64,000 nt of DNA, taken from NCBI GenBank assembly GCA_028293765.1, contig JAQGOG010000037.1, positions 1 to 64,000 of the forward strand, read 5' to 3'. This document shows, one piece after another, positions 3,620-47,720 of this stretch (position 1 is the first letter of the stretch; each line of letters opens with the position of its first letter). The position numbers and the translations under genes are program-made. Under the pieces are notes generated by a model. It was not told the DNA's origin and did not search any database. It saw only the letters and a program-made list of their open reading frames with translations. This DNA comes from Gammaproteobacteria bacterium. Lineage in GTDB: Bacteria > Pseudomonadota > Gammaproteobacteria > Steroidobacterales > Steroidobacteraceae.

Positions 3620-3682
3620 ACTGTGGCTCGCCGGGATTGCCCCGGTATTTCCGGACTGAAACACTCGGGTTTCAACTGAAAC
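3620..3682 (-). promoter_or_regulatory. Module 1: GTTTCAGTTGAAAC-N17-GAAATA-N20-CACAGT
   Basis: Reverse-strand reading upstream of cytochrome c ATG 3574; matches shared architecture. Confidence 0.7.
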
Positions 3683-3691
3683 GGCGGGCCC

Positions 3692-6037
3692 TCAGCCGCT
3701 CGCGGGGCCGACTTCCTGCGTAGTGATGAACACCGGAATGGATTTGGCTGCCGGAGTTTTGCTCTTGGGATCGTGGTGGGCCAACGGCAGCAGGGGATTG
3801 GTTTCGGGAAAGTAGGCGGCAACGCAGCCGCCGGGGATGTCGTACGGATGTGCCGTGAAGTCGCGCAGCACCCGCCTGCGACCGTCGCCGGCAACAGCCT
3901 CTATCTCAACTCGCGTTTCGGGGGCGATCCCTCGCCGCCTCATATCCGCCGCGTTCATGAACACGACCCTGCGTCCCCCGAACACGCCCCGATAACGGTC
4001 GTTGAGCGAGTAGACCGTGGTGTTGTACTGATCGTGGCTGCGGATCGTCGCCAGCCGCAGAAGCATCGAGTCCGGGGGCGATGCCGCCTCTCCCAGTGAA
4101 GCCGCGACGATGAACTGAGCGCGGCCGCTCGGTGTATGCCATTTTCGCGCGCGCGCCGGGTTGGGGAGCTGGAAACCGCCGGGTTGACGGATCCGCCGGT
4201 TGAAGTCGTGGAAGAGATCGGGAAACACGTCTTCGATACTTTCGCGGATGACGTCGTAGTCCTCCTCGAAATCCGACCAGCCGATGTCGCCCTGCGTCAG
4301 GGTGGCCCGCGCCATGCCGCAGACGATGGCTACTTCGGATTTCAAGCTGCCTCGCGGGGCCTCTACGAGGCCAGTGGAGGCGTGCACCATCGACATGCTG
4401 TCCTCGACCGTGATGGACTGGCGGCCGCCCTTTTGGATGTCAATGTCGCTTCTGGCGAGGCACGGGAGGATGAGCGACAGTTGGCCATGCACCAGATGGC
4501 CGCGATTGAGCTTCGTAGTGATTCCGACCGTGAGCCGCAGCCGGCGCATGGCTGCTTCGACCACGGGCTTGTCCGGGACCGCCGCGACGAAGTTGCCACC
4601 CAGCCCGATGAACACTTTCGCGCGCCCGTCGATCATCGCCTGCACGGCGTCGATCACCGCGTGCCCGGGCTCACGTGGCGGCTCGAAAGCGAACACTTCG
4701 CGCATCTGGTCGAGGAGGGCGGCCTTGGGCTTCTCGTCCACCCCCATGGTCCGATCGCCTTGCACGTTCGAGTGACCGCGCACGGGGCAAATGCCGGCGC
4801 CCGGCTTGCCGATATTGCCGCGCATCAGCAGCAGATTAACGAGCTGCTGAACGTTCTGCGCGCCGTGGCGATGCTGAGTAATACCCATCCCGTAGGCGAC
4901 GATGACCGCTTTAGCGCGCATGTAGATGGCCGCAATGCGCTCTATCTGCTCCCGTGAGACTCCCGAAGTAAGCAGAATGTCGTGCCACTGTGTGCGTCGC
5001 AGATCGTGGGCGAGCTCGTGGCATCCCTGCGTGTGCTCCTTGATGAATTCGACATCCAGCACTGGTTCGCGACCGCCGTGAGTGGCCCGCGTGTGTGCCT
5101 CGAGCACGCACTTCATGATTCCCTTGAGCACCGCGAGGTCACCGCCGATGCGAACCTGGCAATATTCGCTGGCAATCGATGTGGAGCTCAGCGTCGCCAT
5201 CTCGATGGGGCTCTGAGGCGCGGCGAAACGCTCGAGCGCGCGCTCGCGCAGTGGATTTATGGCTACGATCGGCACACCACGGCGCGACGCATTGCGCAGC
5301 TCAGTCATCATCCGCGGACTGTTAGTGCCCGGGTTCTGGCCGATTACGAAGATTGCATCGGCGAGCGCGAAGTCGTCCAGCGTCACGGTGCCTTTGCCGA
5401 CCCCGAGGCTCTCGGGCAGGGCTACACTCGTTGCCTCGTGGCACATGTTCGAGCAGTCGGGAAAATTGTTGGTGCCGAAACGGCGCGCGAACAACTGGTA
5501 AAGAAAGGCCGCCTCGTTCGACGTGCGCCCGGAGGTGTAGAACTCGGCTTCGTTCGGATCGTCCAGAGCCCGGAGCTGGGTGCCGATCAGGGCGAACGCG
5601 TCGTCCCAACTCACGGGGACATAGCGATCGCTGCGAGGGTCGTAGCGCAGCGGCTCAGTGAGCCGGCCTTGCTCCTCGAGCCAGTAGTCGCTTCTGGATT
5701 CCAGTTCGCTCACGGTGTGGGTCGCGAACAGCTCGCGTGTGACGCGGCGTCGGGTGAGCTCGGCGGCAACCGCCTTGGCGCCGTTCTCGCAGAATTCGAA
5801 CGAGCTCGTGTGCCGCGGATCGGGCCAGGCGCAACCGGGGCAATCAAAGCCGTGCGGCTGATTCATCGCGAGCAGCGGCTTCGAGCCTTTGAGCCCGAGA
5901 CTCTGCTCACGCAGAGCGTGCGCCACGGCCTGTAAGGCGCCCCAGCCGCCGGCCGGAGCGTCATACGGCTCAAAAAGAGGTTCCTGCGGCGACTCGGTAG
6001 CTGGGATCTCGTCCTGGGGATTACTTCTGGCGTTCAT
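3692..6037 (-). CDS. FdhF/YdeP-family molybdopterin oxidoreductase
   Basis: GFDCPGCAWPDP, TSGRTSNEAAFLYQLFARRFGTNNFPDCSNMCHE, GVCPVRGHSNVQGDRTMG-like segment; ORF opens at 6082 but the predicted promoter favours ATG 6037. Confidence 0.88.
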   Translation of the reverse strand: MNARSNPQDEIPATESPQEPLFEPYDAPAGGWGALQAVAHALREQSLGLKGSKPLLAMNQPHGFDCPGCAWPDPRHTSSFEFCENGAKAVAAELTRRRVTRELFATHTVSELESRSDYWLEEQGRLTEPLRYDPRSDRYVPVSWDDAFALIGTQLRALDDPNEAEFYTSGRTSNEAAFLYQLFARRFGTNNFPDCSNMCHEATSVALPESLGVGKGTVTLDDFALADAIFVIGQNPGTNSPRMMTELRNASRRGVPIVAINPLRERALERFAAPQSPIEMATLSSTSIASEYCQVRIGGDLAVLKGIMKCVLEAHTRATHGGREPVLDVEFIKEHTQGCHELAHDLRRTQWHDILLTSGVSREQIERIAAIYMRAKAVIVAYGMGITQHRHGAQNVQQLVNLLLMRGNIGKPGAGICPVRGHSNVQGDRTMGVDEKPKAALLDQMREVFAFEPPREPGHAVIDAVQAMIDGRAKVFIGLGGNFVAAVPDKPVVEAAMRRLRLTVGITTKLNRGHLVHGQLSLILPCLARSDIDIQKGGRQSITVEDSMSMVHASTGLVEAPRGSLKSEVAIVCGMARATLTQGDIGWSDFEEDYDVIRESIEDVFPDLFHDFNRRIRQPGGFQLPNPARARKWHTPSGRAQFIVAASLGEAASPPDSMLLRLATIRSHDQYNTTVYSLNDRYRGVFGGRRVVFMNAADMRRRGIAPETRVEIEAVAGDGRRRVLRDFTAHPYDIPGGCVAAYFPETNPLLPLAHHDPKSKTPAAKSIPVFITTQEVGPASG

Positions 6038-6066
6038 AGTATTACGGCGGCGACTGTCGTACTTCA

Positions 6067-6139
6067 GCAGTGCGGCAAGCATTGAAAAGGACTGTTACCG
6101 GCCGATTGCGCCGACGCCGCGCAGTGTTACGGGTGAAAT
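6067..6139 (-). promoter_or_regulatory. Module 2: ATTTCACCCGTAAC-N27-GTAACA-N20-CACTGC
   Basis: Upstream of YdeP/FdhF-like gene (ATG 6037). Confidence 0.55.
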
Positions 6140-6166: not shown

Positions 6167-6229
6167 ATTTCAAGTGAAACGCGCGCCGCCATGCGCGGAA
6201 ATGTCTCCGCAATACCCACCCCGCAATCT
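6167..6229 (+). promoter_or_regulatory. Module 3: ATTTCAAGTGAAAC-N17-GAAATG-N20-CAATCT
   Basis: Upstream of MFS gene 6238. Confidence 0.7.
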
Positions 6230-6237: not shown

Positions 6238-7467
6238 ATGAGTTCAATTCCTGATATCGAATCGTGGTCCGCACCGCCGCCGGCGCCTGGCAGCGAGGCG
6301 TCACACAGCGGTCTCAGTCGCACGCAGGTAGCCATCTTCGCAACCGCATGCGGCCTTGCAGTCGCGAATATCTACTACTCTCAGCCGCTGCTCGGCCTCA
6401 TCGCGCCAGCCCTGGGGTTGCGCCCGGGGCTTGCCGGCCTCATCGTGGCGCTGACGCAGCTCGGTTACGGTGCGGGCCTGTTGTTTCTGGTGCCCCTGAG
6501 CGATGTGATCGAGAACCGCCGTCTCGTGATCTGGGCGCTCGGCGCAGTTGTGCTCGGTCTGTTTGGCATTGCGCTGTCCGACTCGGCTGTGACTTTCATG
6601 GCCGCATCGTTCGTCGTCGGCGTGTCTGCCGTCGCGACGCAGATTCTCGTGCCATTCGCCTCCCACCTCGCTCCGGAAGAGTCGCGCGGCAAAGTAGTGG
6701 GCACCGTGATGTCCGGCCTGCTGGGCGGAATCATGCTGGCGCGGCCGTTCTCGAGCTACATCGCCGCAACTTTCGGCTGGCGCGCAGTGTTCTACATCTC
6801 GGCCGGCATGATGCTCGCCCTGATGCTGGCGCTGCTGCGGGCTCTGCCGGAGCGGCGACCCGCCACGAAGCTGGACTATGCGCAAATCCTGCGATCGCTT
6901 CCCGGCCTGGTCGCCCGAACGCCCCTTTTGCGGCGTCGCGCTTTCTATCAAGGCATGATGTTCGCCGGCTTCAATCTCTTCTGGACCGGCGCGCCGCTGC
7001 TGCTGGCCCGTGAATTTGACCTGGGTCATCGCAGCATTGCGCTGTTCGCACTGGCGGGCGCGGCCGGGGCACTCTCCGCGCCCGTGGCGGGACGGCTGGC
7101 CGATCGCGGTCTGGCGCGCCCTGCGACGGGATGGGCGTTAGTGTCGGCCCTGATTGCCTTCATCATTGCTGCGGCGGCAGGGTACGCGCACTCGATTGCG
7201 CTACTCGTTGTCGCGGCGTTGGTCCTCGACGCGGCGGTCCAGGTCTGTCAGGTCCTGAGCCTGCGCAGCATCTACATGCTGGCACCCGATCTGCGCGGCC
7301 GGCTCAATGGGCTGTTCATCGCTTTCGCGTTCCTCGGCGGTGCCACGGGCTCCGGGTTGGCCGCGGCCGTGTACGCGTCCCGGGGCTGGAGCACGCTCGC
7401 CAGCCTCGGTGCGCTGTTTATCTTTATCGCTCTCGCGCAGTACGCGAGCGAGCTCCGCCGCCGTTAG
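6238..7467 (+). CDS. MFS transporter
   Basis: 12-TM-like hydrophobic pattern, ANIYYSQPLLGLIAP, GRLADRG. Confidence 0.88.
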   Translation: MSSIPDIESWSAPPPAPGSEASHSGLSRTQVAIFATACGLAVANIYYSQPLLGLIAPALGLRPGLAGLIVALTQLGYGAGLLFLVPLSDVIENRRLVIWALGAVVLGLFGIALSDSAVTFMAASFVVGVSAVATQILVPFASHLAPEESRGKVVGTVMSGLLGGIMLARPFSSYIAATFGWRAVFYISAGMMLALMLALLRALPERRPATKLDYAQILRSLPGLVARTPLLRRRAFYQGMMFAGFNLFWTGAPLLLAREFDLGHRSIALFALAGAAGALSAPVAGRLADRGLARPATGWALVSALIAFIIAAAAGYAHSIALLVVAALVLDAAVQVCQVLSLRSIYMLAPDLRGRLNGLFIAFAFLGGATGSGLAAAVYASRGWSTLASLGALFIFIALAQYASELRRR

Positions 7468-7496: not shown

Positions 7497-8522
7497 TCAG
7501 CCTCGCTGCAGGGGCGCCATGAACTCGGGCCCGATGGGATCCGTGATCGTCTCGCTCAGGATGCGATCGATGCCCGCCCGGGCTGTGGCGTCCAGCGACC
7601 AGCCGGCTACTCCGAGCGCTGCCTCCAGTTGCTCGGGGTGACGGCCGCCCCATAGAGCCACGCTGATGCCCTGGTCGAGCATCCAGCGGACGGCAAGCTG
7701 AATGACGCGCCGGTGGAAGCGCTCTTGCGCGAGCTGATCGAGCTGACGCACGGCTGTCAGGTACTGCGCAAAGCGGGGTGGCTGGAACTTGGGATCGAAG
7801 CGCCGCAGGTCGTCTCCCACGAAGCCGGTGTCGGCGCGCATCCGTCCGCTCAGCAAGCCGCGACACAGGGCGCCATACCCGAGAGTCACGATGTTGTTGG
7901 CCCGGCAGTAGGGGAGAATGTCCGCTTCGATGCCCCGTTCGAACAGGTTATAGGGCGGCTGCAGCACGTGCAGGGGAGCACTCTGGCGGAAGCGCTCCAT
8001 CTGCGCGACAGAGAAGTTGCTGACGCCGATGGCGCGGATCTTTCCCTGGTCGTAAAGCATGCACATCGCATCGGCCGTTTCCTCAATGGGCACGAGCGGA
8101 TCGGGCCAATGCACTTGATAGATGTCGATGTAATCGGTACGCAGCCGGCGTAGTGACTCATCGAACTCCTGCATGACGCGCTCCCTGGTCGCGTTCCGGT
8201 AGACCTTGCCGTCGTGCCATTCCAGGCCCACCTTGGTAGCAATGATTGCCTGTGAGCGCAGGCCCGCGTCCGAGACGGCTCTGCCGACGATCTCTTCGGA
8301 TACGCCAAATCCGTAGGCCGGCGCTGTATCGATCAGGTTGATTCCTTGATCCAGAGCGGCCCTGATCGTGGCGATCGATTCGGCCTCGTCCGTGCCACCC
8401 CACATCCAGCCGCCCATCGCCCAGGTTCCGAGCGCTACGCGGGCTACGCGCAGTTGTGTGGCGGGAATGTCCACTGTCTCCGTGGTGACTTCTTTTACCG
8501 TGGCCTGGCTCGACTGAGGCAT
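7497..8522 (-). CDS. aldo/keto reductase
   Basis: LGTWAMGGWMWGG, NLIDTAPAYGFGVSEEIVGRA, YIDIYQVHWPDP, IRAIGVSNFS. Confidence 0.93.
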   Translation of the reverse strand: MPQSSQATVKEVTTETVDIPATQLRVARVALGTWAMGGWMWGGTDEAESIATIRAALDQGINLIDTAPAYGFGVSEEIVGRAVSDAGLRSQAIIATKVGLEWHDGKVYRNATRERVMQEFDESLRRLRTDYIDIYQVHWPDPLVPIEETADAMCMLYDQGKIRAIGVSNFSVAQMERFRQSAPLHVLQPPYNLFERGIEADILPYCRANNIVTLGYGALCRGLLSGRMRADTGFVGDDLRRFDPKFQPPRFAQYLTAVRQLDQLAQERFHRRVIQLAVRWMLDQGISVALWGGRHPEQLEAALGVAGWSLDATARAGIDRILSETITDPIGPEFMAPLQRG

Positions 8523-8539: not shown

Positions 8540-8612
8540 CGGATAGCAGGAGGTTCTGCGCCGTTCATTTCCCATGCGTTGCAGCAGGGCGCGCGTCCGT
8601 TACAAGTGAAAT
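8540..8612 (-). promoter_or_regulatory. Module 4: ATTTCACTTGTAAC-N27-GAAATG-N20-TATCCG
   Basis: Upstream of aldo/keto reductase ATG 8522. Confidence 0.7.
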
Positions 8613-21682: not shown

Positions 21683-21787
21683 CCCCGGCGCCACTCCTTC
21701 CGAGCGAAATGCGACGCGTGGCTGGTCGGCCGATCTTACGCTGGTGTGAACGCATCCGCGCCTCCTACGGCGTAAGTCGTGACGCAT

Positions 21788-21815
21788 CCCCACCCAGTCG
21801 ATCGACTGGGTGGGG
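21788..21815. repeat. 28-bp perfect palindrome CCCCACCCAGTCGATCGACTGGGTGGGG
   Basis: Direct reading; lies 11 bp beyond the urcA-like stop and about 105 bp upstream of the CadC-like start. Confidence 0.9.
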
Positions 21816-30589: not shown

Positions 30590-31060
30590 TCACGGGCAAG
30601 CGGCTCGTGCGGCGGGCGCGCTTGGGACGACGGTACACTTTGCGTTGATGGCCACATACGCTTCGAACTCATCGCCCCGCTGGACAGGAAGCAACACTCT
30701 CCACGCCTGCGCAGGGTGGCGGGCGGCCCAATAAAGCGAGCCGATTCCGGCACGTGATATGTAGGTGCTCCACCTCTCTTCCGGCAGCGACGACCCGATC
30801 ACGATGGCAATAGCTTGCGGCTCGTCCGAATCTTGCGGGCCCGTAGCCGGAGGCAAGTCCGTCCACTGCACGTTCTTCGGCTCGGGGGGGCCAAGATCGA
30901 GCGCCGCACGGCCGGGGACGGGCGCGTCGAGCGCCGAAATCGCAGCAATCGTCATCGTACCGTGAGGCGCGTCGGCCGAATATGCCACGCCGACGGTCAG
31001 CAAGCAGACAGGGATCAGCAACAGCGTCGGAACGAATTTGCTCACGAGACCTCCTGGCAC
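30590..31060 (-). CDS. hypothetical secreted protein
   Basis: ORF with clear signal peptide FVPTLLLIPVCLLTVGVAYSAD; start uncertain (31060 or GTG 31045); no family recognised. Confidence 0.55.
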   Translation of the reverse strand: MPGGLVSKFVPTLLLIPVCLLTVGVAYSADAPHGTMTIAAISALDAPVPGRAALDLGPPEPKNVQWTDLPPATGPQDSDEPQAIAIVIGSSLPEERWSTYISRAGIGSLYWAARHPAQAWRVLLPVQRGDEFEAYVAINAKCTVVPSAPAARAACP

Positions 31061-31099: not shown

Positions 31100-32209
31100 T
31101 CATTTAGGACTTCGCCTGGCACCAGGCACTGTCGGAAGTCTGACCACCGTCCGTAACAGCCGTGTTTCGTCTGTGAGCGAGCCGCATTTCAATCGAAATA
31201 GTCGCGTGGTGTCAGTTCGCTCTCGCACGCTCATGAGGTCAGGATTTACTCCGACGCCGCGCGCGTCTCCTTGCGCAGGCTTGGCGGCCCACAACGGCGG
31301 CACCGGAGACGGGCACGTCTGAGGATTTCCGCCACGGGCGGTCCTCCCGATCAGGGGCGACGCACCGCGGTTGAGCGCCAGGCGCTGCACCACCTGCCCG
31401 GTGGCGCGATCCAGCACCAGGAAATCTCCCGCCCTGTCCCCGATCGCCACCAGAGGGCGTGTCTGTCCGTCCACCTGGCCCTCGAACAGGACGGGAATCA
31501 TCGCCGGATCGTCGTCGTGAGAGTCGTTCTGCAGGATCTTGTAGTACCACTTGATCCTGGGTTGCGGGCCCGAGATGTCCAAGGCGACGACCGAGTCGGT
31601 ATAAAGATTCTCGCCCTCTCTGCCCTTGAGGACCATGTCGGGACCGGGATTGCCGGGGGCCACGAACAAGCTGTCGCTGCCCTGGTCGACGGCCAATCCG
31701 CTCCAGACGGCCCCGCCGCCGTGCTGCCAGGAATTGCCGGGCCAGGTTTCGTGTCCGGGCTGCCCGGGGCCGGGAATAGCCTGCCAGTCCCACAGGCGTC
31801 GGCCGTCCTTGATGCTGAAGGCGCTGACGAGCCCGAGGGTGCCGTTATCGCCGCCTCCGGTGCCGAGGATGAGCTGGTTTTTGTAGACGTAAGCAGCCAT
31901 CGAGTAAAAGCTGATACTGGTTCTCCAGGCCATGCCCAGCGCAGTGATATTGGTCTTGTCGATCTGCGTCAGTTGTGTGTATCGGTTTCCGGAATAGGTC
32001 TTCGCCGGCAGGACCCAATTGGCATCATCGTGCACAGCCTCGAGCAAAGTTTCCGCGGCCGGGAAGCTTGCCGCGCGCGCGGCGATTTGCTCCGTCGATG
32101 CAGTTACGGGCATAAACAATGCCGATAGCGTGACGACGATGAGGATCAGTAGCGCGAGTACCCCGAAGGTCTGGGGACGCCGCAGGGCCACGCGGATGAA
32201 CGACAACAT
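31100..32209 (-). pseudogene. chimeric PQQ quinoprotein dehydrogenase-like fragment with RND-permease-like N-terminal TM, C-terminally truncated
   Basis: N-term MLSFIRVALRRPQTFGVLALLILIV resembles RND permease N-termini; then WVLPAKTYSGNRYTQLTQIDKTNI and NPGPD propeller motifs; PQQ homology stops near 31300. Confidence 0.6.
31137..31199 (-). promoter_or_regulatory. Module 5: ATTTCGATTGAAAT-N17-GAAACA-N20-CAGACT
   Basis: Upstream of secreted hypothetical protein (30590..31060); lies in the degenerate tail of the PQQ chimera. Confidence 0.6.
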
Positions 32210-32548: not shown

Positions 32549-32610
32549 AGCGTGGTGGGGAAGGGTTGCGCCGCGATTTCGCGGCGCCCGGCGAGTGTTT
32601 CAGCTGCAAT
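32549..32610 (-). promoter_or_regulatory. Module 6: ATTGCAGCTGAAAC-N16-GAAATC-N20-CACGCT
   Basis: Upstream of the 79-aa TM protein (ATG 32494). Confidence 0.55.
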
Positions 32611-32633: not shown

Positions 32634-33410
32634 TCAATACAGGATTTCGACGGGAGATTTGAAGAGGTAGCCCACACCGCGTTCAGTGACGATGTACTGG
32701 GGCTGCGAGGCATCCGGTTCGATCTTGCGCCGCAGCCGGAGCACCTGCACGTCGATCGCGCGGTCGTAAACCTCGTTGTCGTAGACGCGGCTCGCCTCGA
32801 GGAGCTGGTCCCGGGTGAGGATTCTCTCCGGGGCAGCGAGCAGCGCGGCGAGCAAGTTGAACTCGCGGGTCGTCAATTCGATGTTCTCTCCGTCGCGGCG
32901 CTTGAGGCGCCGCGTTCGCAGATTCAGCTCGAATTCGGCGAACCGGTAGGCGCGAATTTCCCGCTGTCGCGCCTGCGCCAGAGCCGTGCTCTTCGTTCGT
33001 CGCAGCACTGTCCGGATACGCGCCAGCAGCTCGCGCGGACTGAAAGGCTTGGTCAGATAATCGTCGGCGCCGAGCTCGAGTCCCATCACGCGGTCGGCCT
33101 CGTCGCGCACGCCGGTGAGCATGACAATGGGTATCGCCGAGCTGTTGCGCAGCGTCCGGGCGATCGCCATGCCGTCCTCGCCGGCAAGACGCAAGTCGAG
33201 GACGACGAGATCGATCGCCTCGTCCGCGAGAATCTGCGACATCTGCGTGCCGCTCGATGCCACGCTGACGCGCAGCGCGTTCTCCGTGAGGTATTCCTCT
33301 AACAATTCACGGATCTGCGGGTCGTCGTCCACGACCAGGATGTGGGGCTGAACTATCTCCGGCATGCCTGCTTGCCTCGATCGCCGCGCGCTCGTAAGGT
33401 AATTTAGCAC
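32634..33410 (-). CDS. OmpR-family response regulator
   Basis: Receiver ILVVDDDPQIRELLEEYL...VVLDLRLAGEDGM; C-terminal wHTH with YDRAIDVQVLRLRRKIEPD. Confidence 0.94.
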   Translation of the reverse strand: MLNYLTSARRSRQAGMPEIVQPHILVVDDDPQIRELLEEYLTENALRVSVASSGTQMSQILADEAIDLVVLDLRLAGEDGMAIARTLRNSSAIPIVMLTGVRDEADRVMGLELGADDYLTKPFSPRELLARIRTVLRRTKSTALAQARQREIRAYRFAEFELNLRTRRLKRRDGENIELTTREFNLLAALLAAPERILTRDQLLEASRVYDNEVYDRAIDVQVLRLRRKIEPDASQPQYIVTERGVGYLFKSPVEILY

Positions 33411-35947
33411 GGAATCGAGTGAACCGGTGCCGTCAGCACTCGCGCGAGCGCCTCGGCGAGGTCGCGGCGCTGAAGTGGCTTGCGCAACACCTCATTTACG
33501 CCGATAGCCGCCGCTCGCTTCGCGAGCTGCGGGCCACCGTGGCCGCTCATGAGGATGATCGGGACGTCGGGCCGAATCCTCCGGATGTCGCTCGCGAGCT
33601 CCGTGCCGATGAGATCCGGCATCGCTTCATCGGTGAGGATGAGATCGAAGCGCTCCGGCTCGGCTCGCAACGCCTGTAGGGCCGCGCTACTCGATTCGAA
33701 GCCCACGGGCTCGTAGCCGAGCTCTGCGAGCGTTTCCTCGGCGAGCGCCACGAGCGAGCTCTCGTCATCGACGATCATCACCGTTTCGCCACCGCCGCGG
33801 GGCAGCTCGCGCGCCGCTGCGACGAAAGGTCTTCCTGTTTCGCCCGCGACCGGCAGCCAGATCTCGAACGTCGTCCCTTCTCCCGGCTGCGTCGTAACGT
33901 CTATCGCACCCCCAAGCTCGGTCACGATGCCGTGCACGAGCGACAAGCCGAGTCCGGTGCCTGCGCCGACACCCTTGGTGGTGAAGAATGGATCGAACAT
34001 GCGCTCCAACACCGCAGGCGGGATGCCGGTGCCGGTATCGATCACGGCGAGTCGCACATATGACCCCGGGGTCACAGAGCCCCGCGAAAATGTTTTGCCT
34101 TCGCTCAACTCGACGCATTCGAGAACTACACTGAGTACGCCACCGTGCGCCATTGCGTGCAGGGCGTTGGTACCCAGATTCATCATAACCTGGTGCAGGT
34201 GCGTCGCGTCCCCGATCACCGCCGCATTGCCTGCTTCGAGTGTTCTCTCCAGGCGTATTCCCGGGGGCAGCGAGGCTGCGAGCAGCTCGAGCGTTTCCTC
34301 GATGACGGACTGGACGTTCATTGGGACTCGCTCACCGAGCCCACTGCGGCTGAAACCGAGAATGCGGTCGACGAGCGCCTTGGCGCGCTCGGCCGCGTGC
34401 ATGACATTGTCCAGGTAGCGCCGCAAGGTGCTGCCTGGCGCGGATTGCTGGTGCGCAAGCTCGCCGTACCCGAGGATCGCCCCGAGGATGTTGTTGAAGT
34501 CATGGGCGATGCCGCCTGCGAGCGTCCCGATCGCCTCCATCTTCTGCGACTGCCGCAGCTGCGCCTCGAGGTGGTCCTTGTCGATCTGGGCCTGCTTTTG
34601 CGCGGTGATTTCGATTGCCGAGCCGACGAATCGATACGGCTTACCGGTCGAGTCGCGTAGAAAACGCCCGCGTGCGAGCAGCCAACCCCAGGTGCCGCCA
34701 GGCTGGCGTACACGGTATTCGCACTCATAGCGCGGCGTATGTCCCTCGAAATGCTCTCTAACTGCCGCTTCGCGGCGCGGCACGTCGTCGGGATGGATGA
34801 CGATCGCCGCCATCCACGCCGTGCGTGTGGTGATCGCACTGTCCTGGGTGATGCCTGTCAGTATTTTCATCTTCGGCGAGAGGAACAGGCGATCCGTCGC
34901 GACGTCCCAGTCCCAATGCCCCTCGTTTGCGCCTTCCATTGCGAGCGCATAGCGTTCCTCGCTTTCACGCAGGGCACGCTCGCCCGCCTCGACACGTCGT
35001 AATTGGCGCAACAGAGCCACTATAGTCAACGCTCCCAGCAGGGTGATGATCAGCGTTCGCAGGCCGAGGCGGATTGCTTCGTCGCGCCACGGCCGCAACG
35101 CGACGGCCTCCTCGCGAGTGACCGCCAGCGCCAGGTTAGTATCCCTGACGCGTGCAACGGCGATGAAGTGGCGCTTCCCGTCGATTGGACTCTCGAGCGG
35201 AGTTTCCGGTGCATTCGATTGGGCAGCGAGCTCGGGGAATCTCTGCCCCACCGCCGCGGGGGTCGGCGGGTTACGTACGAGCAGGGTCCCATCCGCGCGC
35301 AGCAGGTGGATCGCGCTCCCTCGACCGAGGTTGACGGCTCCATAGAACTGTTTGAGATCCTCCAGGTCGACGATTGCAGTGATAACGCCCGCGAATTCGC
35401 CTTTATCGTCGTCGAGCCGGCGCGAGAGGATTACCCCGGCGCGATTTTCGGAGCGAGTGATCAGCGGCTCGCTCATAAACAGCCCAGTCGCGGTGCGGTC
35501 CCGCTGAGCGATGAAATATGACCGGTCGGAGACGTCGAGATTGGGCGGTGACGATCCGCGCGACCGGTGGCGCTGAATCCCCTGCGCGTCGACGATCGTG
35601 ATCAAGCGTACCTGCCGCACTCCCGCCGTGCGGCTAGCAAGAACGTCGTCGAGACGCTCCGGGGCGATCTTGTGGCTGTCGTTTACATACCAGCGCGCCG
35701 TATCGCGAAGCAGAAGGTCGACGGCTTGCCACGTCCATGCAGTTTGCTCGGCGAGCGCTTTTGCCACGTTGCCAGTCTCGCGATTGGTCGCAGCGATCGC
35801 AGTGTGATACGCGCGCCAGGCGTCGTAAACCGACGAGCCCGCAAACGCGAGGATGGCGAAAACGCCGAGCACGACTACTCCAAGTGCCAGACGCTTGAAC
35901 CGGACGCAACCGGTCTGGGGTAATGCAGGCTCGTTCGCGGACGACAT
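33404..35947 (-). CDS. hybrid sensor histidine kinase (Cache-like sensor, PAS, HisKA, HATPase, receiver)
   Basis: TM-flanked periplasmic domain, PAS, GGIAHDFNNILGAILGYGELA H-box, DTGTGIPPAVLERMFDPFFTTKGVGAGTGLGLSLVHGIV, C-terminal receiver. Confidence 0.93.
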   Translation of the reverse strand: MSSANEPALPQTGCVRFKRLALGVVVLGVFAILAFAGSSVYDAWRAYHTAIAATNRETGNVAKALAEQTAWTWQAVDLLLRDTARWYVNDSHKIAPERLDDVLASRTAGVRQVRLITIVDAQGIQRHRSRGSSPPNLDVSDRSYFIAQRDRTATGLFMSEPLITRSENRAGVILSRRLDDDKGEFAGVITAIVDLEDLKQFYGAVNLGRGSAIHLLRADGTLLVRNPPTPAAVGQRFPELAAQSNAPETPLESPIDGKRHFIAVARVRDTNLALAVTREEAVALRPWRDEAIRLGLRTLIITLLGALTIVALLRQLRRVEAGERALRESEERYALAMEGANEGHWDWDVATDRLFLSPKMKILTGITQDSAITTRTAWMAAIVIHPDDVPRREAAVREHFEGHTPRYECEYRVRQPGGTWGWLLARGRFLRDSTGKPYRFVGSAIEITAQKQAQIDKDHLEAQLRQSQKMEAIGTLAGGIAHDFNNILGAILGYGELAHQQSAPGSTLRRYLDNVMHAAERAKALVDRILGFSRSGLGERVPMNVQSVIEETLELLAASLPPGIRLERTLEAGNAAVIGDATHLHQVMMNLGTNALHAMAHGGVLSVVLECVELSEGKTFSRGSVTPGSYVRLAVIDTGTGIPPAVLERMFDPFFTTKGVGAGTGLGLSLVHGIVTELGGAIDVTTQPGEGTTFEIWLPVAGETGRPFVAAARELPRGGGETVMIVDDESSLVALAEETLAELGYEPVGFESSSAALQALRAEPERFDLILTDEAMPDLIGTELASDIRRIRPDVPIILMSGHGGPQLAKRAAAIGVNEVLRKPLQRRDLAEALARVLTAPVHSIPC

Positions 35948-35964: not shown

Positions 35965-36327
35965 TCAGGTCGATGCGGCAATCATACCGCGCACCGTCTC
36001 GAGCAGATCGACTCGGGCTAGCGGCTTCGCAATGACCTGCTGTACGCCGAGCATCTGTGCGGTTGCGCCATTGCCCGACAGACCGGAACGAAACTGACCC
36101 GAGATCGCGATGATCGGCGTGCCCGGATGCGCTGCCTGGATGGCGCGCACCAGCCGCGGGCCCGCATGTTTGGGCATGTACACACTGACGATCACGAGAT
36201 CCGCTCTGCCTCCCGGATGCACCGGGTTCAGCGCGGCCGCCTGGACCCGATAACCTGCTTCGCTCAGCCACTCGATGAGGAGGGCACGCATCAGGTCATT
36301 TTCCTCGTATATCACAATTTCCGACAT
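35965..36327 (-). CDS. stand-alone receiver-domain response regulator
   Basis: MSEIVIYEENDLMRALLIEWLSEAGYRV...VYMPKHAGPRLVRAI...VQQVIAKPLARVDLLETV. Confidence 0.8.
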   Translation of the reverse strand: MSEIVIYEENDLMRALLIEWLSEAGYRVQAAALNPVHPGGRADLVIVSVYMPKHAGPRLVRAIQAAHPGTPIIAISGQFRSGLSGNGATAQMLGVQQVIAKPLARVDLLETVRGMIAAST

Positions 36328-36392: not shown

Positions 36393-36455
36393 AGCCTGCC
36401 GGACAGATTCGTCGTTTGCGATTGCGAGCCGCCCGCCGCTCGTTTCAATTGTAAT
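36393..36455 (-). promoter_or_regulatory. Module 7: ATTACAATTGAAAC-N17-CAATCG-N20-CAGGCT
   Basis: Upstream of receiver protein ATG 36327 heading the two-component operon; proximal box degenerate. Confidence 0.45.
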
Positions 36456-36489: not shown

Positions 36490-36552
36490 GTTTCAAGTGA
36501 AATGGCGGGGCGCGCCCTCTGAAATGGGCACGACACCTCGCGATCCCAGCAT
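36490..36552 (+). promoter_or_regulatory. Module 8: GTTTCAAGTGAAAT-N17-GAAATG-N20-CAGCAT
   Basis: Upstream of RND permease ATG 36591. Confidence 0.7.
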
Positions 36553-36590: not shown

Positions 36591-39500
36591 ATGCGGATCG
36601 TACGGATCGCGCTCGAGCGACCCTATACCTTCATCGTGCTGGCGCTGCTGATCCTGCTGCTGGGCGTCTTCACGATGTTGCGGATACCGATCGACATCTT
36701 TCCCAATATCAACATTCCGGTGGTCGCGGCTATCTGGAGCTACAGTGGGTTGTCGCCGGACGATATGGCGAAGCGCATCATTCTGCTGACCGAGAAGAGC
36801 GCGCAGACCGACATCTCCAACGTCGAGCACACCGAGTCGCAGTCGCTCAACGGCATTGGGGTGGCCAAGTATTTCTTTCAGCCCAACGTGAACGAGGACC
36901 TGTCGTACGCGCAGATCACCGGCGTATCGCAGACTCTGCTGAAAAGTGTACCGCCAGGCACCGAACCGCCATCGATCCTCGCTTACAACGCGTCCACGGT
37001 GCCGGTCATCCAGCTGGCGCTTTCCAGCTCGACGCTGTCCGAGACACAGATCTTCGACCTTGGCTCGAACGTCGTTCGTACCACGCTCGCGACCGTGGCC
37101 GGTGCAGCCATACCGTTTCCATTCGGCGGCAAGCTCCGCCAGATCCAGGTGGATCTGGATCCGCAGGCTCTGCGCGCCAACGGCCTCTCCGGTACCGACG
37201 TGACCTCGGCCATCGCCGCGCAAAACCTGATTCTGCCGGCCGGTACGCAGAAGGTCGGGACACTCGAGTACTTCGTCAAGCTCAATGCGAGCCCGACCCA
37301 GGTTGCGCAATTGAACGACCTGCCCGTCGCCACCCACAACGGAACCGTGATTTACGTTCGGGACGTCGCGCACGTTCGCGACGGCTCGCCGCCGCAGACG
37401 AACATCGTGCGGCAGGAGGGCCACCGCGCTGCTTTGATGAGCATTCTGAAGACCGGTACGAGTTCGACGCTCGACGTTATCAACGGAATCAAGCAGAAGC
37501 TGCCGCAGATGCAGGCCCTCCTGCCTCCCGGGCTCAAGATCCAGGTGCTGGGAGACCAGTCGATCTTCGTCCGTTCGGCCCTCTCGGGCGTGGTTCGGGA
37601 GGCCACCACGGCGGCGGTGCTCACGGGATTGATGGTCCTGCTCTTTCTGGGGAGCTGGCGCAGCACCGTCATTATCTTCGTCTCCATCCCGCTGTCGATC
37701 CTCGCCTCTATCGTGTGCCTGTCGGCGTTGGGTCAGACCATCAACATCATGACCCTTGGGGGGCTTGCGCTGGCGGTCGGCATTCTGGTGGATGACGCGA
37801 CGGTGACCATCGAGAGCATCAACACGCACCTGGAGCAGGGCAAGGCGGTCGAACCCGCGATTATCGACGGCGCGCAGCAGATCGCCCTCCCCAAGCTCGT
37901 GTCCACCATTGCCATCTGCATCGTGTTCGTTCCCATGTTCATGCTCGCCGGTATCGCCGGATACCTCTTCGTGCCATTCGCCGAAGCCGTCGTGTTCGCC
38001 ATGCTGGCGTCTTACCTTTTGTCGGTGACGCTCGTGCTGACTCTCGCCAAGTTCTGGCTCAAACCGCACGCGGCGCACGGCGCGGGGCGCGGAATCCTGG
38101 CGCGCTTCGAGTCTGTCTTCGACCGGCTGCGGGGCCGGTATCACACCCTGCTGGAAGCCGCTTTGCGCAGCGGTCCGCGTTTCGCCGGCGTCTTTCTGCT
38201 TGCGATGGCGGCCACGGCTATCCTCGCGTTCCCGCTCGGAACGTATCTTCCGGGTCTCGGGCAGGATTTCTTTCCCACCGTCGACTCCGGCCAGATATTG
38301 CTGCATCTGCGCGCCAGAACGGGCCTGCGCATCGAGGAAACGGCCGCGCTCTGTGATGCGGTGGAGACGACGATTCGCCAGAGCATCCCATCCTCCGAAC
38401 TCGCCAACGTGGTGGATAACATCGGCGTTCCCTATAGCGGCATCAATCTCGCTTACAGCACCTCGTCCCCGATCGGACCGGGCGACGCCGACATTTACAT
38501 CACTCTCGGCTCGAACCATCACCCCACGGCGAATTACGTGAGCCTGCTTCGCCAGAAGCTCAACGCAATCTATCCCTCCACGACCTTCGCGTTCCTGCCG
38601 GCGGATATCAATAGTCAGATCCTGAATTTCGGTCTGCCGAGCCCGCTCGACATTCAAATCTCCGGGCCCAACGTGGACGCGAACCGTCTATACGCGAATG
38701 CCTTGCTGCAGAAGGTACGTGCGATCCCCGGAGCCGTGGACATGCGCATTCAGCAGGCTTTCGACTACCCCCAGCTCAACGTGGACGTCGACCGCAGCAA
38801 AGCCCGGCTTGTGGGCCTGACTCAGAACGACGTGGCGTCGAACCTGCTGGTGTCGTTGTCGGGCAGCTTTCAGACGTCGCCCTCGTTCTGGATGGATCCC
38901 AACACAGGTACTCAGTACAGCGTCGCCACGCAGACGCCGCAGTATCGCCTGAACACACTCAACGATCTGGCGGCGACACCGCTGCGACCGACTGGCGGCG
39001 CCGCTTCGCAGATGCTTTCCAATGTGGCGCTCTTCCACCGAAGCTCCGCTCCCGGGGTCGTGAGCCACTACAACGCCATGCCGGTGATCGACATCTACGG
39101 CTCCGTGGAGGGAACCGATCTCGGTTTTATGTCGGCGCAGGTAAACAAGATCATTGCAGCCTCACAACACTATCTGCCGCGGGGCACCCAGGTCTTTGTA
39201 CGCGGACAGGTGCAGACCATGAATGCTTCATTCTCGGGGCTGCTCGTTGGACTGCTGGGTGCGATCGTGCTCGTGTATCTGTTGATGGTGGTCAATTTCC
39301 AGTCCTGGCTCGACCCTTTCATCATCATCACGGCGCTACCCGCGGCGCTCGCCGGCATCGTCTGGATGCTATTTCTGACACATACGACGGTCAGCGTGCC
39401 TGCGCTCACCGGCGCGATCATGTGCATGGGGGTAGCCACCGCGAATAGCGTGCTGATCGTCAGCTTCGCCCGCGAACGCATGACGGCCGGTGACAACGCC

Positions 39501-39746
39501 TTCTCTGCGGCCTCCCAAGCAGGCTTCGCGCGCTTCCGCCCGGTATTGATGACGGCACTGGCGATGATCATCGGCATGGTGCCGATGGCGCTCGGGTTGG
39601 GAGAGGGGGGCGAGCAGAATGCCCCGCTCGGCCGCGCCGTTATCGGCGGTCTCGTCTTTGCTACCGTGGCGACGCTGCTGTTCGTACCAACTGTGTTCCG
39701 CCTGATTCATGGCCGAGGGCACCCGCCGCCGGCGCAGGCCGCGTAA
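36591..39746 (+). CDS. RND (HAE1/AcrB-like) efflux permease
   Basis: 1051 aa; MRIVRIALERPYTFIVLALLILLLGVFTMLRIPIDIFPNINIPVV, LGGLALAVGILVDDATVTIESI. Confidence 0.96.
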   Translation: MRIVRIALERPYTFIVLALLILLLGVFTMLRIPIDIFPNINIPVVAAIWSYSGLSPDDMAKRIILLTEKSAQTDISNVEHTESQSLNGIGVAKYFFQPNVNEDLSYAQITGVSQTLLKSVPPGTEPPSILAYNASTVPVIQLALSSSTLSETQIFDLGSNVVRTTLATVAGAAIPFPFGGKLRQIQVDLDPQALRANGLSGTDVTSAIAAQNLILPAGTQKVGTLEYFVKLNASPTQVAQLNDLPVATHNGTVIYVRDVAHVRDGSPPQTNIVRQEGHRAALMSILKTGTSSTLDVINGIKQKLPQMQALLPPGLKIQVLGDQSIFVRSALSGVVREATTAAVLTGLMVLLFLGSWRSTVIIFVSIPLSILASIVCLSALGQTINIMTLGGLALAVGILVDDATVTIESINTHLEQGKAVEPAIIDGAQQIALPKLVSTIAICIVFVPMFMLAGIAGYLFVPFAEAVVFAMLASYLLSVTLVLTLAKFWLKPHAAHGAGRGILARFESVFDRLRGRYHTLLEAALRSGPRFAGVFLLAMAATAILAFPLGTYLPGLGQDFFPTVDSGQILLHLRARTGLRIEETAALCDAVETTIRQSIPSSELANVVDNIGVPYSGINLAYSTSSPIGPGDADIYITLGSNHHPTANYVSLLRQKLNAIYPSTTFAFLPADINSQILNFGLPSPLDIQISGPNVDANRLYANALLQKVRAIPGAVDMRIQQAFDYPQLNVDVDRSKARLVGLTQNDVASNLLVSLSGSFQTSPSFWMDPNTGTQYSVATQTPQYRLNTLNDLAATPLRPTGGAASQMLSNVALFHRSSAPGVVSHYNAMPVIDIYGSVEGTDLGFMSAQVNKIIAASQHYLPRGTQVFVRGQVQTMNASFSGLLVGLLGAIVLVYLLMVVNFQSWLDPFIIITALPAALAGIVWMLFLTHTTVSVPALTGAIMCMGVATANSVLIVSFARERMTAGDNAFSAASQAGFARFRPVLMTALAMIIGMVPMALGLGEGGEQNAPLGRAVIGGLVFATVATLLFVPTVFRLIHGRGHPPPAQAA

Positions 39747-40978
39747 TGTCCCAGGAGACTTTCATGTTCGTTCCTTCAGTTTCCAGTGCTAGAGACGTAG
39801 GCTCGCCGCGCGCGCGACGCTACGCGCTTGCGGCTCTCGCCATTGCGTTGGGTCTCGCCGTTTGGGGGATCCTCAGCCGAGTGTCTGCGCGGGCCACGCT
39901 CGCCACCGACACCGCCACGCTTGCGATTCCCGCCGTCAGTACGATCAAACCCGCGCAGGGGCAGGCCGCGGAGGCGTTGGTGCTACCGGGCAGCGTACAG
40001 GCGTATAACGAGGCGCTGATCCATGCGCGCACGAACGGCTATCTCCTGAACTGGTATACGGACATCGGTACGCGGGTGAAGAAGGGCCAGCTGTTGGCCG
40101 ACATCGATACGCCGGAGGTGGACGAGCAGCTGCGACAGGCGCGGGCGGACTTAGCCACGGCGCAGGCAAATTTTGATCTTGCGCTGAGTACCAACCAGCG
40201 TTGGCAGGGATTGTTGTCCACGAAGTCCGTGTCCCAGCAGGCCGCGGATGCCGCTGCAGGGGACTCGGCCGCGAAGAAGGCGACGTTGGCGTCTGCCGCG
40301 GCCAATGTCGCCCGGCTGAGCGACCTCGAGTCTTTCAAACGCGTGTTGGCGCCGTTCGACGGGGTGGTCACGAGTCGCACCACAGACATCGGCGCCTTGA
40401 TCAATGCGGGGCAGGGAACAGCGCTGTTCAGCGTTGCTGACGTTCGCAGGCTGCGGGTGTATGTACAGGTGCCGCAGCTCTATGCGTCGAGCACGACGCC
40501 CGGTCTCGATGCCGATCTGACTTTCGCCGAGCGGCCAGGGAAAACATACCCGGCGCGGGTAGTGAGCACGGCAGACGCCCTCGATCCCAATTCGCGCACG
40601 TTGCAGGTGGAGTTGCTGGTCGACAATGCAGCGGGGGAGCTGTTTCCTGGCGCATACTCCGAGGTGCACTTCAAACTTCCGTCCGGGCCCGACAGCCTGC
40701 GCCTGCCCGCAAACGCCGTGCTCTTCCGCTCGACGGACTTGCAGGTCGCCGTGGTGGGGAAGGACCACCGTGTCACTCTGAAGAACATCACGACAGGCCG
40801 CGATTTCGGCACCTCGATGGAAGTGCTCTCCGGCCTGAGTCCGGGCGATGATGTCGTCGTCAATCCGCCGGATTCGATTACAACCGGCGCGCTCGTGCGC
40901 CTGGCCCCACCACCAGCGCCAGCGCAATCTCCGCAGTCTGCCCCGAGTTCGGCGCCAACGGGAGGACGCCACTCGTGA
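39746..40978 (+). CDS. RND efflux periplasmic adaptor (membrane fusion protein)
   Basis: LPGSVQAYNEALIHARTNGYLLNWYTDIGTRVKKGQLLADIDTPEVDEQLRQA, LAPFDGVVTSRTTDIGALI. Confidence 0.94.
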   Translation: MSQETFMFVPSVSSARDVGSPRARRYALAALAIALGLAVWGILSRVSARATLATDTATLAIPAVSTIKPAQGQAAEALVLPGSVQAYNEALIHARTNGYLLNWYTDIGTRVKKGQLLADIDTPEVDEQLRQARADLATAQANFDLALSTNQRWQGLLSTKSVSQQAADAAAGDSAAKKATLASAAANVARLSDLESFKRVLAPFDGVVTSRTTDIGALINAGQGTALFSVADVRRLRVYVQVPQLYASSTTPGLDADLTFAERPGKTYPARVVSTADALDPNSRTLQVELLVDNAAGELFPGAYSEVHFKLPSGPDSLRLPANAVLFRSTDLQVAVVGKDHRVTLKNITTGRDFGTSMEVLSGLSPGDDVVVNPPDSITTGALVRLAPPPAPAQSPQSAPSSAPTGGRHS

Positions 40979-42417
40979 AGCCGCAACTTCTCGTTGCTCT
41001 GGGTGTCGCCGCCTCGCTGGCGGCCTGCTCGCTCGCGCCAGTGTACAAGACGCCGGCGACTGCACCGCCGGCAGCCGCCTATAAAGAGGCCGGTGACTGG
41101 CAGCCGGCACAGCCAGCAGATGCGCAGCCCCGGGGTTCCTGGTGGAGCACCTATCGGGACAGTCAGCTGGATGCGCTCGAGGGGCAAGTCACGGCTTCGA
41201 ACCAGAACCTCAAGGCGGCGTTCGCGCGTCTCGAACAGGCACGTGCGCAAATGCGGCTCATGCGGGCCAACTACTTTCCAACCGTCACCGGGGCGGTTAG
41301 CGGAACTCGCACTAAAAGCTCGCTCAATTCGCCCGTTCACAGCGCAGTCAAGCCGAGGACCCAGAATGACCTGGTGCTCGAGAGTGATCTGTCTTATGAG
41401 ATCGACGTGTTCGGTCGGGTCCGCAATTCGGTTGCAGCGGCGCGCGCGAGCGCGCAGGCCAGCGCAGCCGATCTCGCTGTCATCGACCTGAGCATGCATT
41501 CGGAAGTTGCGATGGATTACTTCACCTTGCGCAGTGAAGATGCGCAGCAGGTGCTGCTGGATCAGACCGTCTCGGAATACGGCCAGGCGCTGGAGCTGGC
41601 TCAGAACCTGTACAACGGCGGAGCCGCTCCACTGGCCGATGTGGCGCAGGCGCAGGCGCAGTTGGAGACGGCTCGCACTCAGGCGGAGGATGTTCGCCTG
41701 CGACGGGCGCAAACGGAGCACGCCATCGCCGTGCTGGTGGACCAGCCGGCCTCGAAGTTTCGCTTGGAACCCAAGCCGCTGCCCCTGGACGCGGCCCCGC
41801 CGTCGATCGATGCGGGGCTGCCGTCAGTTCTGTTGGAGCGGCGGCCTGATGTTGCCGGCGCCGAACGGCGTGTTGCCGCGTCCAACGCGAGTATCGGCGT
41901 GGCGCGGGCGGCCTATTTTCCAGTATTCAGCCTTTCGGCCGCGTTGGGTTTCGAAAGCACGCACGGCTTCAGCTTGATCGACGCCCCGAGCTCCCTCTGG
42001 GCGCTGGGCTCTGGCGCGGTGATGACCCTGTTCGACGGCGGCCGACGGCGGGCGACAACGGATCAGGCTCGTGCCGCTTACGATGAGCAGGTAGCCAACT
42101 ACCGGAACACCGTCACCACCGCCTACAGTGAAGTTGAAGACTGGCTCGCAGCGCTGCGGCAGCTCGAACGGGAAAGTGTCAGCGAAGCCGCCGCAGTGGC
42201 CGCCACGACCACCGAGCTCGAGCAGGCCAACTACCGCTACAAGGCGGGCGCGGCTACGTACCTTGAAGTGGTGATAGCGGAGAACGCTTCGCTGGCGGCA
42301 CAGTTATCGGCGGCTGACATTCAAGTGCGACGCATGAATGCCAGCGTGCTGCTGGTCAAGGCGCTCGGTGGCGGCTGGGACGACCGCGTGCCCGCGGACA
42401 AGGTTGCGCGCCGGTGA
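40975..42417 (+). CDS. RND outer-membrane factor lipoprotein (NodT-like)
   Basis: Lipobox LAAC, WWSTYRDSQLDALEGQVTASNQNLKAAFARLEQARAQ; ATG overlaps end of the adaptor gene. Confidence 0.94.
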   Translation: MKPQLLVALGVAASLAACSLAPVYKTPATAPPAAAYKEAGDWQPAQPADAQPRGSWWSTYRDSQLDALEGQVTASNQNLKAAFARLEQARAQMRLMRANYFPTVTGAVSGTRTKSSLNSPVHSAVKPRTQNDLVLESDLSYEIDVFGRVRNSVAAARASAQASAADLAVIDLSMHSEVAMDYFTLRSEDAQQVLLDQTVSEYGQALELAQNLYNGGAAPLADVAQAQAQLETARTQAEDVRLRRAQTEHAIAVLVDQPASKFRLEPKPLPLDAAPPSIDAGLPSVLLERRPDVAGAERRVAASNASIGVARAAYFPVFSLSAALGFESTHGFSLIDAPSSLWALGSGAVMTLFDGGRRRATTDQARAAYDEQVANYRNTVTTAYSEVEDWLAALRQLERESVSEAAAVAATTTELEQANYRYKAGAATYLEVVIAENASLAAQLSAADIQVRRMNASVLLVKALGGGWDDRVPADKVARR

Positions 42418-42482: not shown

Positions 42483-42611
42483 TCATGACACGCCTGCGGC
42501 AACTGGCGCCTGATCCTGTGGGTTCCCGACTTTCTCCTCACTGAGGAACCGCGCCAGCAAGACGGTGATCAGCACCGCAGCAATGAGAGTGATCAAGCGA
42601 TACGTTTTCAT
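42483..42611 (-). CDS. 42-aa single-TM peptide MKTYRLITLIAAVLITVLLARFLSEEKVGNPQDQAPVAAGVS
   Basis: Short ORF with AAGAGGCGACCC RBS-like sequence before ATG and a promoter-like module 45-106 nt upstream. Confidence 0.5.
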   Translation of the reverse strand: MKTYRLITLIAAVLITVLLARFLSEEKVGNPQDQAPVAAGVS

Positions 42612-42655: not shown

Positions 42656-42717
42656 AGTGTGGAGCGAAAATATTGGCCTCGCATTTCTGTACCCACCGAC
42701 GCGGTTTCACCTGAAAT
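42656..42717 (-). promoter_or_regulatory. Module 9: ATTTCAGGTGAAAC-N16-GAAATG-N20-CACACT
   Basis: Upstream of 42-aa membrane peptide ATG 42611. Confidence 0.7.
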
Positions 42718-45754: not shown

Positions 45755-45768
45755 AGCGCGTCCTTTGA

Positions 45769-46698: not shown

Positions 46699-46710
46699 GG
46701 TAATGCAAAC

Positions 46711-47604
46711 CTACGCGATCGCGCTTTGAGCGTCGCCTGCATCTTGTGCCGCGAGGCCGCCGATGGCGGCCCAATCGAGGCTGTCGCCGCCCTGGGCGAG
46801 CAGCCGCAGAAACCGATCGTGCAGCAGGCTGCCGAGCGGCAGCGGCACGCGCAGACTTTCGGCCGCCGCCAGCGCTAGCCGGATGTCCTTGTACCCGAGG
46901 GGCGCGGCGAAGGCCGCCGGCTGAAACTTGTTGCCGGCAATCAGGGCGCCGTAGGTCTTGTAAACCGGTGCGGGGAAAATCGTGGCAGTGAGCAGATCCA
47001 CGTAGGCGCCGCGATCGATGCCGGCCTTGCCGACGAGCGCAATGGCCTCGCCCAATGCCTCGATAACGGTGGCCAGCAGGAAGTTGCCGCTGAGCTTGAC
47101 GAGATTCGCGGCTTGAGGCTCTGCGCCGATCGGTATCGTCTTCTGTCCCAACGCAGTGAAGAGCGGCTTGCACGCTTCGACCGCGGCAGCCTCGCCTGCG
47201 GAAACGATGAAGAGCTTTGCAGCCGCCGCTGCATCCGGACGGCCGAATACCGGCGCGGCGACGAAGCGTTGTCCGGCGTCGGCGTGCGCCTGCGCCAGGC
47301 TTTTCGAGAGCTCGACGCTGATTGTGCTCATCGAAATATGGATCGCGCCTCGGGGGAGATTGCCGATGACGCCGTCTTTTGCCAGCGCGACGCGTGAGAC
47401 CGCGGTGTCGTCGGCAAGCATGGTGATAACCGCCTCACCGCGGCAAGCACCGGCAATAGAGGTTGCTTCGCGCGCACCCAACTCGACGAGCGCGCGACGC
47501 TTCTCGGGGCTACGGTTGAATACAGTGACATCGTGCCCGGCCTTCACGAGGTTTGCCGCCATCGCCGAGCCCATGCGGCCCAGCCCGATGAATCCAATCT
47601 TCAT
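46711..47604 (-). CDS. NAD(P)-dependent 3-hydroxyisobutyrate dehydrogenase-family oxidoreductase
   Basis: MKIGFIGLGRMGSAMAANLVKAGHDVTVFNRSPEK, FVAAPVFGRPDAA, NLVKLSGNFLLATVIEALGEA. Confidence 0.93.
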   Translation of the reverse strand: MKIGFIGLGRMGSAMAANLVKAGHDVTVFNRSPEKRRALVELGAREATSIAGACRGEAVITMLADDTAVSRVALAKDGVIGNLPRGAIHISMSTISVELSKSLAQAHADAGQRFVAAPVFGRPDAAAAAKLFIVSAGEAAAVEACKPLFTALGQKTIPIGAEPQAANLVKLSGNFLLATVIEALGEAIALVGKAGIDRGAYVDLLTATIFPAPVYKTYGALIAGNKFQPAAFAAPLGYKDIRLALAAAESLRVPLPLGSLLHDRFLRLLAQGGDSLDWAAIGGLAAQDAGDAQSAIA

Positions 47605-47647
47605 GTGGTCGTCTCCGTAATTTAGGAAGCAGCGGGCTTGTGCCAAG

Positions 47648-47720
47648 CGAATGTCTGAAGGCTGTGCGCGGTCCATTTCCCAGCCATTGCAGTCGCGGTG
47701 TCCTCGGTTACAGGTGAAAT
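47648..47720 (-). promoter_or_regulatory. Module 10: ATTTCACCTGTAAC-N27-GAAATG-N20-CATTCG
   Basis: Upstream of NAD(P)-dependent dehydrogenase ATG 47604. Confidence 0.7.

Follow-up and report, generated by a model that had tools for sequence, protein, structure and literature searches.

To our knowledge, the vir box, to which the response regulator VirG binds, is known almost wholly from T-DNA transfer. Here we analyzed a stretch of 64,000 nucleotides (hereafter the window; positions 1 to 64,000 of contig JAQGOG010000037.1, assembly GCA_028293765.1) from a gammaproteobacterium of the family Steroidobacteraceae. It carries ten copies of a composite promoter module built on a vir box, and it encodes a VirG-like regulator (32634-33410) paired with a VirA-like kinase (33404-35947). 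The modules are very probably activator-dependent σ70 promoters of this regulator, with PhoB-like activation and a regulon of about 50 promoters.

In PhoB promoters, the half-sites end about 10 nt before the −10 element and sigma is contacted. PhoB binds two 11-bp direct repeats (PMC2648988). The modules share with PhoB/pho box promoters an OmpR-family regulator and direct half-sites spaced by 11 bp, which replace the −35 element about 10 nt before the −10, but they differ in half-site sequence and have an extra palindrome two helical turns upstream. The VirG binding consensus is given as RTTDCAWWTGHAAY in passages of PMC11351099 and PMC6629968, the latter citing Cho and Winans 2005. The Agrobacterium VirA/VirG system has the same palindromic box, placed beside or upstream of the regulator likewise, and is the best NCBIfam match of both the regulator and the kinase in the window; virG autoregulation is known (PMC4086400). 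Regulators in Agrobacterium and Rhizobium AB2/73 plasmid records are about 50% identical to the window regulator. Unlike in Agrobacterium, however, the scores lie below the VirG and VirA-like cut-offs, the box centre is relaxed, the kinase sensor is a dCache domain and the predicted targets serve efflux and periplasmic redox functions. Among the window genes scanned, no vir operon (T-DNA transfer/type IV secretion) was seen, and no genome-wide search for one was made. The modules described here also carry two half-sites 11 bp apart downstream of the box. Passages on Xanthomonas euvesicatoria report VirA/VirG homologs on the chromosome and, close to target genes, the vir-box half-sites TG(A/T)AA(C/T); the targets there are type IV secretion genes, and those passages describe no composite geometry (PMC10432156). 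Compared by motif and regulon content, Caulobacter UzcRS is likewise a two-component system with a regulon rich in envelope and efflux genes, urcA among them, but its motif is CATTAC-N6-TTAA (PMC8963506).

The palindromic box

A preliminary description of the window had reported a recurrent 14-nt palindromic box. This recurrence is real: RTTTCANNTGWAAY with two or fewer mismatches gave 25 strand-wise matches in the window versus 7.1 ± 3.5 in shuffled sequences, none of 100 shuffles reaching 25, and RTTWCANNTGWAAY was found genome-wide at 30 perfect sites versus 3 for the reversed-pattern control. Genome scans here and below were mismatch-tolerant pattern searches with such reversed-pattern controls. 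The specified outer positions of the vir box were all matched in 30 of the 30 genome sites, and the central W-W in only 9. Judged by this match, the 14-nt box is the Agrobacterium vir box as published, except that its central dinucleotide is free here. The preliminary description had assigned the site to no named regulator; this was rejected, since the sequence is that of the VirG box and the window itself encodes a VirG-like regulator at its middle. A literature search gave no match for the literal motif TTTCANNTGAAA and only one passing mention for 'VirG-like/VirA-like'. Part of the box background in other orders consists of GTTTCACGTGAAAC, which we take to be a ParB/parS-like site and not one of the present regulon.

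Geometry of the module

The fixed distance of a proximal half-site, also claimed earlier, was borne out in the 60 flanks of the 30 perfect boxes. GAAAT with at least 4 of 5 matches occurred 22 times at gap 16 versus 0.43 expected (P about 7e-32), and exact GAAAT lay at gaps of 16 (nine times), 17 (three), 27 (three) and 43 nt (once). A gapped search with ATTTC N15-30 RTTTCANNTG gave 15 matches versus 0 in controls, 12 of the 15 at gap 16-17.

For the elements further downstream, 32 modules were aligned on the proximal half-site, without use of the second half-site or −10 features for selection. A profile of pattern-selected modules is circular, so the evidence for these elements was taken only from this alignment. 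A second direct half-site lies exactly 11 bp after the first, with G at +11 in 22 of 32 modules and A at +14 in 22 of 32; A at +13/+14 marks it. In the −10 element, A is found at +27 from the half-site in 26 of 32 modules (P 1e-14) and T at +31 in 22 of 32 (P 4e-10). These are the two strongest positions of the σ70 −10, and the element has almost no other conservation. This positional conservation is that of a PhoB-type class II layout. The sequence between the conserved half-sites is near background in the pattern-selected profile.

The preliminary description had divided the copies into spacer classes of 16/17 and 27 nt. This division was rejected because the '27 nt' copies (6126, 8599 and 47707) share one frame with the 16-nt copies. 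Their first half-site is degenerate (GCAAT, GCAAC and GCAAT, respectively) and their second is strong, and their −10 elements had for this reason been set 11 bp too far. The corrected hexamers are AATGCT, GAACCT and CAGCCT, replacing CACTGC, TATCCG and CATTCG. Thus the fixed geometry and the −10 position 20 nt after GAAATx stand, while three hexamers were misplaced and the second half-site had been missed. The resulting uniform geometry is RTTWCA-NN-TGWAAY, 16/17 nt, GAAAT, 6 nt, GNAA(C/T), about 10 nt, NANNNT.

The two-component operon

The operon encoding the proposed activator consists of three genes:

32634..33410, minus strand: VirG-like OmpR-family response regulator (REC + Trans_reg_C), the proposed activator
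33404..35947, minus strand: VirA-like hybrid kinase (dCache_1, PAS_3, HisKA, HATPase_c, receiver), immediately upstream of the regulator in the same operon
35965..36327, minus strand: 120-aa receiver-like protein by translation, first gene of the operon, with a 33% match to the kinase receiver (C113:35971-36336)

The regulator has the receiver and winged-helix domains of the OmpR/PhoB type (PF00072, 102 bits; PF00486, 86 bits), and VirG (NF010430/PRK13856) is its best NCBIfam match among 92 families with 266 bits, the next being OmpR with 252. The best match of the kinase among all families is VirA-like (NF010411/PRK13837) with 414 bits, below the curated cut-off of 647; the match covers the kinase and receiver but not the sensor. 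In the receiver-like protein, the apparent phospho-Asp position is not Asp (DLVIVSVYMP).

In what follows, G000 is the own genome, G005 a sister species, and other G labels are relatives or other genomes of the class. Two regulator paralogs in G000, 51% and 49% identical, keep the recognition-helix stretch DRSIDVQVLRLRRK; in the regulator homologs of Cupriavidus and Massilia, which have no box nearby, the recognition helix is different. The 51% paralogs, G000:C113:70227-70925 (L108:6227-6925) and G005:C222:25292-26005 (L219:5293-6006), are each followed, directly after the stop codon, by a 1-mismatch box of the GTTAC type. There are eight further hybrid kinases in G000 (C190, C90, C19 (two), C5, C199, C97 and C127; L228-L235), whose PAS-HisKA-HATPase-receiver part is 54-69% identical to that of the window kinase. 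Sensors were examined in three of them and are of the protein kinase-AAA-GAF, MHYT and DUF4118 types. These differing sensors suggest several inputs, and it is possible that VirA-like kinases deliver multi-sensor input to one regulator.

Linkage of box and regulator across taxa

Same-genus orthologs of the regulator, 59-86% identical, have the box beside them. In five species of the genus (G001, G016, G019, G031 and G034), the only perfect box in the genome lies 94-117 bp after the stop codon of the regulator ortholog. In Variovorax and other Burkholderiales, the box is about 20-210 bp upstream of the regulator; in Variovorax the regulator and a dCache-PAS hybrid kinase are divergent, with the box between them and with GACAT and, 11 bp on, GGCA facing the kinase. 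In 69 homologous regulator loci, mostly of Burkholderiales, the density of perfect boxes within 250 bp of the regulator is 40 times that in the rest of the same loci. The alphaproteobacterium Indioceanicola has a near-exact copy of the module 120 bp after a VirA-like/regulator pair (1-mismatch box, gap 16, GACAT, 6 nt, GCAAT, −10 GAGACT).

Genome-wide distribution

With three or fewer mismatches, the composite was found 43 times at gap 16 and 7 times at gap 17 in the own genome versus 0 and 1 for the reversed controls, and 23 and 12 times, respectively, in G005 versus 0 controls. Seven species without a regulator ortholog have 0-3 modules. With two or fewer mismatches, 31 were found in the own genome, and none of the 273 other genomes examined in the class had more than 4. 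The expansion is specific to a lineage, and the earlier proposal of a coherent regulon is supported. A simple, crude gene caller was used, so the following fractions are approximate, although the contrast is large. Boxes are intergenic in 48 of 50 modules versus about 34% of positions expected, and hence the motif is not as frequent inside genes as upstream of them; equal frequency was what the preliminary description had named as refuting it. Its orientation toward gene starts was likewise seen, with a same-strand start within 300 nt downstream of 30 of 50 modules (11.6% of random positions) and of 20 of 35 in G005. Seven modules are clustered at G000:C210:45643-57289 (L201), including some with UrcA-like and DUF3300-like targets.

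Modules in the window and predicted targets

The ten modules of the window are as follows:

3620..3682, minus strand: composite module, gap 17, −10 CACAGT, 0 mismatches, toward cytochrome c gene 3158-3574(-) (Pfam PF13442/PF00034)
6078..6139, minus strand: composite module, gap 16, −10 AATGCT, 1 mismatch, toward FdhF/YdeP oxidoreductase 3692-6082(-) (TIGR01701, 973 bits; orthologous target under a module in G005, 81% identity)
6167..6229, plus strand: composite module, gap 17, −10 CAATCT, 0 mismatches, toward MFS transporter 6238-7467(+) (MFS_1; 73% homolog in G005 also with a module)
8551..8612, minus strand: composite module, gap 16, −10 GAACCT, 1 mismatch, toward aldo/keto reductase 7497-8522(-) (Aldo_ket_red; orthologs in G005 and G027 also with a module)
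31137..31199, minus strand: weak composite module, gap 17, 3 mismatches, toward a small secreted protein at about 30590-31045(-); the box overlaps a called gene
32549..32610, minus strand: composite module, −10 CACGCT, 0 mismatches, just after the regulator gene, toward PQQ-domain gene 31100-32209(-) (81% homolog under a module in G005; the regulator-adjacent box recurs in relatives)
36394..36455, minus strand: perfect vir box 36442-36455 with GCAAT half-site, downstream part with 4 mismatches, toward the two-component operon
36490..36552, plus strand: composite module, gap 17, −10 CAGCAT, 1 mismatch, toward RND efflux operon 36591-42417(+) (ACR_tran, NodT-type outer membrane protein; 93% RND homolog under a module in G005)
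42656..42717, minus strand: composite module, gap 16, −10 CACACT, 1 mismatch, toward 42-aa membrane peptide 42483-42611(-)
47659..47720, minus strand: composite module, gap 16, −10 CAGCCT, 0 mismatches, toward NAD(P)-dependent dehydrogenase 46711-47604(-) (NAD_binding_2)

All ten had been listed before and are real, but the copy at 31186 is weak and that at 36442 is poor downstream. The latter does face the two-component operon, as had been described, but the first gene there is the small receiver-like one and not the kinase directly. We propose putative autoregulation of the operon through this copy; a module is also found upstream of the kinase-regulator pair in G027.

By Pfam and NCBIfam, the genes downstream of modules encode cytochrome c, FdhF/YdeP, two MFS transporters, two aldo/keto reductases, two RND pumps, a PQQ-cytochrome c dehydrogenase, two catalases, DsrE, DUF3300, a cupin, a citrate/arsenite-type carrier, a [2Fe-2S] subunit, an HD protein and four UrcA-family proteins; the second RND pump and a second DUF3300 protein were recognised by their homology to other targets. 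For about 25 modules, the target has a homolog, in some cases a distant one, that also stands under a module in G005 or G027, and an aldo/keto reductase is under a module in all three species. Similar genes lie beside VirA/VirG-like loci elsewhere: in Indioceanicola those for cytochrome c peroxidase, P450 and sorbosone dehydrogenase, and in Sinorhizobium those for cytochrome c, [2Fe-2S] and molybdopterin subunits. The UrcA-family proteins (TIGR04433) under modules are L001:1740-2102, L002:967-1359, L201:7201-7635 and L207:1565-1969. The 42-aa peptide, which has no NCBIfam match, and a 43-aa peptide (L201:13822-13953) are paralogous single-span membrane peptides (76% identity), each directly behind a module.

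Discussion

From these sequence features we infer the following mechanism. The phosphorylated regulator would bind the palindromic vir box near −63 as a second, high-affinity dimer site, and would also bind two head-to-tail half-sites, GAAAT and, 11 bp on, GNAAC/T, in place of the −35 element. There it would hold RNA polymerase on the minimal −10 (NANNNT), as PhoB does. Because the −10 keeps only the two essential bases, the promoters are expected to be nearly silent without the activator. The regulator would activate rather than repress. Class II activation of weak core promoters, as proposed in the preliminary description, remains the most plausible reading of the layout and is strengthened by the 11-bp direct repeats. 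The predicted regulon comprises efflux pumps, periplasmic cytochromes, PQQ/molybdenum oxidoreductases, catalases, and UrcA-family and other envelope proteins. These classes suggest envelope, oxidative or toxic small-molecule stress as the signal, and the dCache domain may sense a small organic or an oxidative envelope stressor.

Several points weigh against assigning the modules to this regulator. Its 266 bits are below the VirG equivalog cut-off of 344. At the proposed autoregulatory copy (36442), the fit to the downstream half-sites is poor. G027 has an ortholog but no perfect box, and only five composite modules. The paralogs in G000 share the recognition-helix stretch, and the 51% one adjoins a 1-mismatch box.

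This last point bears on the main alternative, that several paralogous VirG-like regulators (e.g. G000:C113:70227 and C174:7510) read the module and much of the expanded regulon is theirs. Among the matches listed, the 51% paralog is confined to G000 and G005, the two species in which the regulon is expanded, and in both its box follows the stop codon; together with the identical recognition-helix stretch, this suggests that several regulators may share the regulon. However, species with the window-type ortholog alone still have the module beside it, G027 has five modules and no 51% paralog among the matches listed, and most species with only 44-46% regulators have no box excess. We therefore regard this alternative as possible but rather unlikely. 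It is very improbable that the palindrome is the site of an unrelated regulator of the LysR, TetR, AraC or one-component type, with the two-component genes nearby only by coincidence. A box centre near −63 with a proximal site near −35 does resemble LysR-type geometry, and among the targets are genes for other DNA-binding proteins, one of them a Trans_reg_C-AAA protein; but the palindrome matches the VirG consensus, it is linked to VirG-like genes across many taxa, and direct repeats with 11-bp spacing are typical of OmpR/PhoB regulators, all of which argues for the VirG-like regulator. A LysR-type promoter, with a T-N11-A palindrome at about −65 and a linked LysR regulator, was rejected, as the 14-nt vir box is even-centred and the linked regulator is of the OmpR type. 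The idea that a spread repeat or mobile element left the modules behind, and that they are not selected promoters, is hardly credible: although copies are numerous in two genomes and clustered on one contig (C210), with a few paralogous target families, the sequence between half-sites is near background, the copies are intergenic and oriented to starts, the targets are diverse, and no common flanking sequence or terminal repeats were seen around the modules.

With the VirG-like regulator as the predicted activator, a vir box set in a composite promoter of defined geometry appears to control a large regulon in uncultured Gammaproteobacteria from soil; the box also recurs beside VirG-like genes in Burkholderiales and Alphaproteobacteria. 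This suggests a role of VirG-like regulators outside pathogenesis, in efflux and periplasmic redox instead of infection genes. It also gives a testable rule for vir-box promoter architecture, namely that two further half-sites, spaced by 11 bp, lie at −35, and a clean example of how a regulon has grown between sister species, from a single site to about fifty. More speculatively, and with considerable doubt, a single VirG-like hub may integrate about nine VirA-like kinase cores with differing sensors (dCache, MHYT, DUF4118, protein-kinase/AAA/GAF), an ancestral one-promoter regulon may have expanded to about 50 through the fixed four-half-site module, and VirA/VirG may be a general envelope-redox/efflux system that was the source of the plant-transformation system.

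A Trans_reg_C-TPR one-component regulator is encoded at 19502-21793 (minus strand) of the window, and a Trans_reg_C-AAA gene lies behind a module elsewhere (L113). Near-identical composite-like sequences, TGTAAGCAAATT...GAAATCATCCGGTAAGGCA, were found in another family of the class at G232:C95:2032, G232:C295:55960 and G087:C171:17248; they are possibly a related module or a repeat.

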